A DNA stretch of 64,000 nucleotides from Solimonas sp. K1W22B-7 (lineage in GTDB: Bacteria > Pseudomonadota > Gammaproteobacteria > Nevskiales > Nevskiaceae). The position numbers and the translations under genes are program-made. This document shows, one piece after another, positions 2,736 to 9,727 of this stretch; position 1 is the first letter of the stretch; each line of letters begins with the position of its first letter. The notes beneath the pieces are model-generated. The model made no database searches and was not told the origin of the DNA. It saw only the letters and a program-made list of their open reading frames with translations. The stretch spans positions 1 to 64,000 of the forward strand of contig NZ_CP031704.1 of the NCBI RefSeq assembly GCF_003428335.1, in the 5' to 3' direction.

Positions 2736-3818
2736 ATGCTTCACCTCGCCCGGATCGGGGCGGAAAACTTCAGGGTGTTCGAGAAACTGAGCCTGCGGCC
2801 CCACCGCAGGCTCAATTTCGTTTATGGGGACAACGCCGAGGGCAAGACCACGCTGCTGGAGCTGGTCTATGTGCTGGCCCGGGGCAAGTCCTTCCGCGGC
2901 AGCAGCCTGCAGGACTGCGCCGGGGCTGCCGGCAAGCACTGGCGCCTGCGGGGGCGCTACCAGCAGCAGGACGACGGCCCCCTGGAAGTGGTCGATGCCG
3001 GCTGGACCCAGGGCGAGCTGGCGCAGAAGCGGGAAGGGCAGGCGGCCACCCGGCTTGAATTACTCCGTGAATATCCTGTGCAAATCCTTGAACCAGGCTT
3101 GCATAAGTTATTGCAGGACGGCCCCAGCTATCGGCGCGGATTCCTGGACTGGGGTGTGTTCCACGTGGAACAGGGCTTTCATGTCACCTGGCGGCGCTTC
3201 AGCCGGGCCCTGAGGCAGCGCAACCTGGCCCTGAGGCAGCGGGCACCCGACCGCGAGCTGGAACCCTGGACCCTGGAACTGGCCACGGCCGGCGAGGAGA
3301 TCCAGCGCTACCGCAAGGCGCAGCTCGAGGCGATCCGTCCTTATATGGACTCCCGGGTGAAGCAGTTGCTGGGCACGGACCAGTGGTCCATGGACCTGCA
3401 GGCCGGCTGGGCCGCCGGGCAGGGGCTGAAGGAGTCCCTGGACGCCCACCTGGCGCGGGACCGCCAGCAGGGCATGACCCAGGGCGGACCGCAGCGGGCC
3501 GAGCTGCGCCTGCACCTGCACGACCGCCAGACCAAGACCCTGGTCAGCCGCGGGCAGCAAAAACAGCTGATCGCGGCCCTGCTGCTGAGCCAGTGCGAGC
3601 TGATCTACCGGACCACCGGAACCGCCCCGATCCTGCTTGTGGATGATTTTGCGTCCGAGCTGGGCGAGGAGTACCAGCAGCGCCTGCTGGGCAGCCTGCT
3701 GGAGTACCCCGGGCAGCTCTTCATCACCAGCTTTGCCCCCAGCGGGGTTCTCGAAAAACTGCCCGATGCGGCGGTGTTCCACGTGGAACAGGGCCGCCTC
3801 CATCCCGTTTCAGGGTGA
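2736..3818 (+). CDS. recF: DNA replication and repair protein RecF
   Basis: SMC-like ATPase that helps load RecA at gaps. The 360-residue protein has Walker A GDNAEGKT at 31-38, the ABC-type signature around LVSRGQQKQLIAALLLSQ and Walker B ILLVDDFASEL near the C-terminus. It starts 5 bp after dnaN. Its oddity is the heptapeptide VFHVEQG, which occurs twice (about residues 140-147 and near the C-terminus). Each copy is encoded by a perfect 16-bp parS-type palindrome, so protein and centromere signals overlap. Confidence 0.97.
   Translation: MLHLARIGAENFRVFEKLSLRPHRRLNFVYGDNAEGKTTLLELVYVLARGKSFRGSSLQDCAGAAGKHWRLRGRYQQQDDGPLEVVDAGWTQGELAQKREGQAATRLELLREYPVQILEPGLHKLLQDGPSYRRGFLDWGVFHVEQGFHVTWRRFSRALRQRNLALRQRAPDRELEPWTLELATAGEEIQRYRKAQLEAIRPYMDSRVKQLLGTDQWSMDLQAGWAAGQGLKESLDAHLARDRQQGMTQGGPQRAELRLHLHDRQTKTLVSRGQQKQLIAALLLSQCELIYRTTGTAPILLVDDFASELGEEYQQRLLGSLLEYPGQLFITSFAPSGVLEKLPDAAVFHVEQGRLHPVSG
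3157..3172. promoter_or_regulatory. parS: parS site inside recF
   Basis: Perfect palindrome TGTTCCACGTGGAACA, identical in form to the Pseudomonas-type ParB (Spo0J) binding site. It is about 3.2 kb from the start of dnaA, the normal zone for chromosomal parS. It lies inside recF and encodes VFHVEQ there. ParB itself is not in the window. Confidence 0.88.
3775..3790. promoter_or_regulatory. parS: Second parS site, 3' end of recF
   Basis: A second perfect TGTTCCACGTGGAACA, 618 bp from the first and 28 bp before the recF stop, again read as VFHVEQ. Two exact 16-mers so close to the origin are very unlikely by chance and support a ParB loading cluster. Confidence 0.88.
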
Positions 3819-3852: not shown

Positions 3853-6357
<2,505 letters not shown>

Positions 6358-7464: not shown

Positions 7465-7512
7465 TGTTCCACGTTGGCGCGAATCCGCCGCGCTTCGTGT
7501 CGCGCCCGCCCT

Positions 7513-7836
7513 TTAGCCTAGCAATCGACGCTGCAGCAGAGTCTGCATGTCGCGGCGCCCATCGATCACGGCCAGAATGACGACGCTGTGCTCGCGCACG
7601 ACATAGATCATCCGGTAGGGCTTGAAATGGGCTTGGCGAAAATCCCGGATTCCAAGAGCCGCTAATTCTGGCGGGTACTCGCCGCGATTCGGAAGATCCC
7701 TGAGCTTTGCTAGCGCTGCGTGGACGCCATCCAGGACCTTGTCCGCGCGAGCCAGGCCATCCTGCCCGGCGATGTACGCATGGAGCTCGTCGAGGTCACG
7801 CAAGGCATCCTGCGTGACAGCGACACTGAATTTCAC
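7513..7836 (-). CDS. ParE/RelE-family toxin
   Basis: Small (107 aa) toxin of the ParE/RelE superfamily; members poison gyrase or cleave translated mRNA. The N-terminal TQDALRDLDELHAYIA helix and the C-terminal FKPYRMIYVVREHSVVILAVIDGRRDMQTLL strand-helix are characteristic. The start is GTG at 7836 and overlaps the stop of the upstream antitoxin by 4 bp (GTGA), so translation is coupled. The last residues (LLQRRLLG) fit the ParE pattern better than RelE. The exact target cannot be told from sequence. Confidence 0.85.
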   Translation of the reverse strand: MKFSVAVTQDALRDLDELHAYIAGQDGLARADKVLDGVHAALAKLRDLPNRGEYPPELAALGIRDFRQAHFKPYRMIYVVREHSVVILAVIDGRRDMQTLLQRRLLG

Positions 7837-8111
7837 TTGCTGCCTCGGCGTGAGGCCTTGATGCGATCAATGGCTTCATCGAGCGGAACAACTTTGCCCT
7901 CTGCGATTTGCTGCTGCCCCAGTGCAAGAATCTTCAACAGCGCCAGCGTCTCCTGCGTCTGCTCGTAGCTATGGATGTCCTGGAGGACAGCTTTCGCCTC
8001 GCCGTTCTGTGTGATCACCATCGCAGGGCCACTCCTCCCAAGATCGCGCACGATCTCCGAGGCGTGGGCCTTTAGATAGCTGATGGGTTTGATGCTGGTG
8101 GATAGCTTCAT
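7833..8111 (-). CDS. Phd/YefM-family antitoxin
   Basis: Antitoxin that neutralises the neighbouring toxin and represses the operon. MKLSTSIKPISYLKAHASEI is the typical N-terminal DNA-binding start of YefM/Phd proteins, and PAMVITQNGEAKAVLQDI follows. I chose the ATG at 8111 (92 aa) because GGAG lies just upstream of it; an in-frame ATG at 8129 would add six residues. The C-terminal part (EGKVVPLDEAIDRIKAS) is the usual toxin-binding tail. The promoter with a probable operator is immediately upstream. Confidence 0.87.
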   Translation of the reverse strand: MKLSTSIKPISYLKAHASEIVRDLGRSGPAMVITQNGEAKAVLQDIHSYEQTQETLALLKILALGQQQIAEGKVVPLDEAIDRIKASRRGSK

Positions 8112-8127
8112 GACGGTCTCCGCGGGC

Positions 8128-8176
8128 ATGACCTGAATTCGGTCCGATTATAGGTCATGTTCTTGAGCCATGTCGG
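8128..8176 (-). promoter_or_regulatory. Toxin-antitoxin promoter with inverted repeat
   Basis: Minus-strand -10 TATAAT at 8147-8152 and a weak -35 CCGACA at 8171-8176 (18-bp spacer). The -10 is bracketed by the inverted repeat ATGACCT (8128-8134) / AGGTCAT (8152-8158), a plausible site for autorepression by the antitoxin complex. Confidence 0.55.
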
Positions 8177-9571: not shown

Positions 9572-9587
9572 TGTTCCACGTGGATTG
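9572..9587. promoter_or_regulatory. Degenerate parS-like site
   Basis: TGTTCCACGTGGATTG matches the parS palindrome at 13 of 16 positions, with all mismatches at the right end. It lies in a gene-free repeat-rich gap about 9.6 kb from dnaA. It could be a weak ParB site or a decayed one. Confidence 0.5.
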
Positions 9588-9604: not shown

Positions 9605-9677
9605 GTAGGAGCGAGCTTGCTCGCGACCTGTCCGGGCGGGCGACCCCCCAGCGGGTCGCGAGCAAGCTCGCTCCTAC
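9605..9677. repeat. Pseudomonas-type REP pair (REPIN-like)
   Basis: Perfect inverted repeat: 24-base arms at 9605-9628 and 9654-9677 with a 25-base centre. The arms carry GTAGGAGCGAGCTTGCTCGC, which closely resembles the classic Pseudomonas REP sequence. The gene-free stretch 9372-9846 otherwise holds only the neighbouring hairpin, the parS-like site and the surE-like promoter region. Confidence 0.85.
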
Positions 9678-9727
9678 ATCGGCCAAACGTTCGCAAAATT
9701 CCAAGCCTATGAATTTGCGCGATAATT

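Follow-up and report, generated by a model that had tools for sequence, protein, structure and literature searches.

In Pseudomonas aeruginosa, parS1 and parS2 are located within recF (PMC5521831). In vitro, the affinity of ParB is highest for parS1-4, and it binds them less well after synonymous changes (PMC4368675). ChIP-seq places ParB on the same four sites, loss of all of which results in about 25% anucleate cells (PMC5098823), any one of them being enough for segregation (PMC4368675, PMC5098823). The E. coli family is devoid of chromosomal ParABS (PMC4368675). In Bacillus subtilis and Caulobacter crescentus, parS belongs to the same family of CACGTG-centred palindromes as the recF sites described below, lies near the origin and is read by a Spo0J-type ParB, but differs from them in T/C and A/G arm positions. 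Both species have several chromosomal parS sites and, to our knowledge, none of these are paired inside recF. The main survey of parS is reportedly that of Livny et al. 2007. Our search of the open-access literature, to which its scope was restricted, found no description of a class-wide recF-parS pattern.

The DNA analysed here (the window) comprises the first 64,000 nucleotides of contig NZ_CP031704.1 of Solimonas sp. K1W22B-7. It opens at the ATG of dnaA (1-1362), followed by dnaN (1630-2730), directly after it recF (2736-3818, plus strand), and gyrB (3880-6357). The recF ORF encodes 360 amino acids, matches RecF of known structure (E 1.5e-28) and has its nearest named relative in Solimonas sp. 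(79% identity). The perfect palindrome TGTTCCACGTGGAACA occurs in it twice, as parS site A (hereafter site 1; 3157-3172, codons 141-146) and as parS site B (site 2; 3775-3790, codons 347-352). Both are strandless, lie 618 bp apart and share one reading frame, xTG TTC CAC GTG GAA CAx. VFHVEQ is encoded at each of them and is followed by G, so RecF carries VFHVEQG twice; coordinates, frame and residues are all as a preceding sequence-only reading of the window had given them. That reading overstated the case in having the palindromes force the entire heptapeptide. Four whole codons (F-H-V-E) are indeed fixed by the 16-mer, and the flanking codons are fixed in part (xTG permits V, L or M, and CAx permits Q or H), while the seventh residue G, the exact V and the exact Q are left free. 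For this reason the identity of the two heptapeptides is partly a coincidence; relatives from the same genus read VFHVEH/MFHVEH or VFHVEQ/VFHVEH at the two sites.

Four matches to the 16-mer with at most three mismatches are present in the window, against 0.07 expected from shuffles. The complete genome (one contig, 5,373,342 bases) contains two exact 16-mers and, over its whole 5.37 Mb, no copy with one or two mismatches; copies with three mismatches number 29 versus 24 in the reversed control. The genome-wide parS scan that the sequence-only reading had proposed thus returned the recF pair only, and none of the 16-mers scattered far from the origin that it had named as evidence against itself. 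Chance occurrence of two 16-mers is ruled out by the window shuffles together with the genome-wide count. Both sites, two perfect copies of the 16-bp chromosomal parS palindrome TGTTYCACGTGRAACA, are located in the origin region, 3.2 and 3.8 kb from the dnaA start, and good copies are rare elsewhere.

Sites 1 and 2 are orthologous to parS1 and parS2 of P. aeruginosa, respectively. The two species share the same two recF positions and the same operon beside oriC (PMC4368675, PMC5521831); parS2 is the identical 16-mer and parS1 deviates by one base (PMC4368675), and strain PA7 (L311) has TGTTCCACGTGGAACC at the recF place of site 1. Further downstream, P. aeruginosa possesses parS3 and parS4, and it has six weak sites besides, whereas the good sites of Solimonas sp. 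K1W22B-7 are the recF pair only. Since the P. aeruginosa orthologs are known to reside in recF, to be bound by ParB and to be active in segregation, the recF parS element itself is not new; what we add is its class-wide pattern and a measured constraint on codons and residues.

A cognate ParA and a Spo0J-type ParB are encoded in the genome, in an rsmG-parA-parB cluster at about 456-458 kb. The ParB (P0001, 285 aa) finds its best match to solved chromosomal ParBs at E 1.8e-54 and contains the GERRWR nucleotide motif and an aligned helix-turn-helix. The parA-parB pair (L041, genome 456-459 kb) lies ~457 kb from oriC, unlike in P. aeruginosa; in Pseudomonas the distance is about 7 kb. Judging from sequence and from the P. 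aeruginosa system, the two recF palindromes are very probably the chromosomal centromere (parS) of Solimonas sp. K1W22B-7, ParB recognition having kept their codons as well as His-Val-Glu. By the same analogy we infer ParB binding and a function in segregation in this strain. ParB would bind both palindromes, load as CTP-dependent clamps and spread over the dnaA-dnaN-recF-gyrB region, and ParA would move newly copied origins apart.

A second ParB-family gene, P0002 (266 aa; L042 1009-1806, minus strand; genome about 4.937 Mb, near folE), stands alone, with no parA seen adjoining, and a second copy is found also in family relatives. Its product could bind parS too. The presence of the gene here and in several relatives would fit with another DNA-binding protein, such as this lone second ParB, being the main ligand of the palindromes, but in most class genomes a single ParB gene accompanies the recF sites, and the 16-mer is identical to the site of P. 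aeruginosa ParB (PMC4368675). We regard this alternative as very improbable.

The recF sites are widespread among relatives. In the order sample, each of the 61 genomes contains one to four sites with at most one mismatch, most of them exactly two, and nearly all of these sites are inside recF (69 of 75 in the family). A class sample of gammaproteobacterial genomes, one or two per family, yielded such a site in 182 of 274 genomes, compared with about 8 for the control. These collections together gave 240 RecF genes, 50 for the order and 190 for the class. When class sites are called by the strict core NGTTYCACGTGRAACN, 134 of the 190 class RecFs have both sites, 172 have at least one and 18 have neither; site 1 is present in 155 and site 2 in 151, and the two RecF positions are the same throughout. 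Among named organisms, the sites occur for example in P. aeruginosa PA7, Azotobacter vinelandii, Idiomarina, Halomonas, Salinisphaera and Dokdonella; these names were taken from a scan with a peptide pattern that overlaps site 1, which is biased to carriers and served for names only. The two Vibrio RecFs examined are without recF parS sites.

Most carriers retain the two sites as a pair separated by about 620 bp, as would be expected if exact spacing were required, for example to let two ParB dimers form a helically phased loop. The distance varies in 3-bp steps between 597 and 651 bp, following indels in RecF, and 31 class-sample genomes retain only one of the two sites. Given this spread of spacings, we reject fixed spacing or phasing and consider a role for it extremely improbable.

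Conservation of the sites could in principle be that of the protein, the FHVE peptide being preserved because RecF needs it, with the palindrome as a by-product. Phe142 and Phe348 are near-invariant even where parS is absent, and E. coli, which has the same gene order dnaA-dnaN-recF-gyrB in a region without parS, retains FH-EP and F-VE as scaffolds at sites 1 and 2, respectively (its RecF reads CFHNEP and MFTVEK). Yet the codons of the motif are frozen far beyond every other conserved RecF column. Six of them (143-145 and 349-351; His CAC, Val GTG, Glu GAA) are 95-98% fixed in the class set; the next most codon-pure of 102 conserved columns, defined as positions where 60% or more of the class RecFs share a residue, reaches 72%. 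On a RecF tree built without the site columns, parsimony gives 2-8 codon changes for the six columns versus 27-42 for those ranking next-lowest in changes per taxon. By both measures the sites are conserved as DNA and not only as protein. Since codon usage of Solimonas sp. K1W22B-7 alone, given the peptide, yields one site with a probability of about 0.12, the proof lies in comparison across genomes, not in the single gene.

Loss of the sites is equally telling. Among 27 RecFs without site 1, Phe142 is kept in 26, His in 10 and Glu in 4; Val144 is replaced in nearly all, and Val144 and Glu145 vary widely. Loss of site 2 leaves a similar pattern, yet Val350 is kept in 8 of 24. As Phe persists and His-Val-Glu is lost along with parS, Phe belongs to RecF, while His-Val-Glu is for the most part a cost of carrying parS. 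Codon purity, parsimony counts and loss pattern together reject protein-driven conservation for His-Val-Glu; the idea of a peptide kept for its own function stands for Phe only, and as an explanation of the whole motif it deserves hardly any credence.

A further trace of selection on DNA is seen in the palindrome arms, where Phe codons 142 and 348 are the counterparts of codons 145 and 351. Replacement of Glu by Lys (GAA to AAA) at codon 145 occurs in 20 of 71 RecFs with TTT at codon 142 and in 1 of 85 with TTC (Fisher p 4e-7); at codon 351 it occurs in 24 of 69 with TTT at codon 348 and in 9 of 85 with TTC (Fisher p 3e-4). Base composition accounts for part of this coupling, third-position GC being 0.57 for C/G sites versus 0.45 for T/A sites. 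Because the codons are frozen, the residues are lost without parS and the Glu/Lys choice is linked to the opposite arm, the sequences indicate that parS dictates RecF codons and several residues. The alignment of RecF across relatives, suggested in the earlier reading as a check, thus shows sites kept at the same two positions with frozen codons, and the constraint on codon and residue choice that it had claimed is borne out by about 190 genomes. This is a clear instance of dual coding, in which one stretch of DNA serves as both centromere and part of an enzyme, across at least one bacterial class. Conserved residues need not reflect the function of the protein that contains them, which is a trap for mutational studies of RecF and for inference from conservation.

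Under the centromere reading, the sites would have been fixed in recF early in Gammaproteobacteria, at two places tolerating F-H-V-E: a loop before a helix (site 1) and a C-terminal strand (site 2). The loop position is tentative, since the RecF structure model has low confidence at residues 124-145. ParB recognition would since then have kept the DNA, and hence the codons and His-Val-Glu, RecF itself needing mainly Phe.

Location of the sites in this operon might alternatively mean that ParB bound in recF regulates dnaA-dnaN-recF-gyrB or RecF-dependent repair. In P. aeruginosa, ParB excess does lower expression of genes around parS1-4, but loss of ParB or parS did not raise expression of genes near the intragenic parS1 and parS2 (PMC5521831), and relocating parS2 to a place downstream of gyrB restores segregation almost fully (PMC5098823). 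Moreover, genomes with parS outside recF still keep recF. We consider this explanation very improbable. The functional tie between ParB loading and repair by RecF that had been proposed from the window is not supported, nor is ParB regulation of recF; recF looks like a host gene for the centromere, not its partner.

Parsimony indicates that presence of site 1 changed at least 19 times and that of site 2 at least 16 times. Most genomes missing both recF sites have parS-like sites elsewhere, often on the same contig. In G231 (L183; 1.0 Mb, one contig, 99% complete) ParB was not found and the recF sites are eroded, with 3 mismatches, while G086 from the same genus has ParB and intact recF sites; G231 represents a natural experiment on parS decay. 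Neither ParB nor sites were found in G310. Exceptions are the draft genomes G190 and G273, which carry the sites with ParB not detected, perhaps due to incomplete assembly.

When the palindrome core changes, it tends to change at both sites. Departure from CACGTG (positions 6-11) was observed in class genomes at both sites in 6 cases, at site 1 alone in 1, at site 2 alone in 3 and at neither in 136 (Fisher p 5e-8). CATATG occurs twice in G156 (L217), CACATG twice in G084 (L136) and CATGTG twice in G238 (L126), and G063 (L235) has the mirror pair CACATG/CATGTG; under a relaxed pattern, each of these four genomes contains just those two sites. Such joint shifts possibly reflect coevolution of ParB and parS, for which these lineages offer a natural test. 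ParB helix-turn-helix regions differ among shifted-core genomes (e.g. VSRSR in G156, VGLSR in G084), and because the ParB alignment contains no recognition-helix change consistent among them, coevolution stays a lead. A broader proposal, which we hold with slightly less than even confidence, is that across the class the centromere overwrote part of RecF: ParB binding would set codons 143-145 and 349-351, palindrome symmetry would drive the replacement of Glu by Lys, and joint core shifts would be recF following the specificity of ParB.

Two weaker matches, a 13/16 site and a half-site, had also been pointed out downstream of recF. Both are present, and as parS sites they are weak candidates only. 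The imperfect parS-like site TGTTCCACGTGGATTG (9572-9587, plus strand) lies in the gap between dgt and surE. Its degree of match is at chance level genome-wide, by the three-mismatch counts given above, and in P. aeruginosa no binding in vivo was seen at sites with two mismatches (PMC5098823). All four genus members (4/4) nevertheless have a 13/16 or 14/16 site in their dgt-surE gap, and block-shuffled versions of each gap score as high as the original in 0 to 0.3% of trials. These gaps are repeat-rich mosaics and the parS-like sites are not at one aligned place. Position 9572 is a possible third site, weak or decaying. In the same gap (9605-9680), a REP-like inverted repeat, GTAGGAGCGAGCTTGCTCGCGACC ... 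GGTCGCGAGCAAGCTCGCTCCTAC, was noticed, and the mosaic varies among genus members.

The half-site TGTTCCACGT (7465-7474, plus strand; 10 bases) directly follows aroB. Outside the two parS sites the genome has sixteen copies of it, of which two lie no more than 6.5 kb from parS. It is possibly a weak or decaying site or a remnant. Among the other genera listed in a family AroB search, aroB does not adjoin recF, and the history of the half-site is therefore a question at genus level only. Between aroB and dgt (7513-8129, minus strand), two small ORFs of 98 and 107 aa have the look of a RelB/RelE-type antitoxin-toxin pair.
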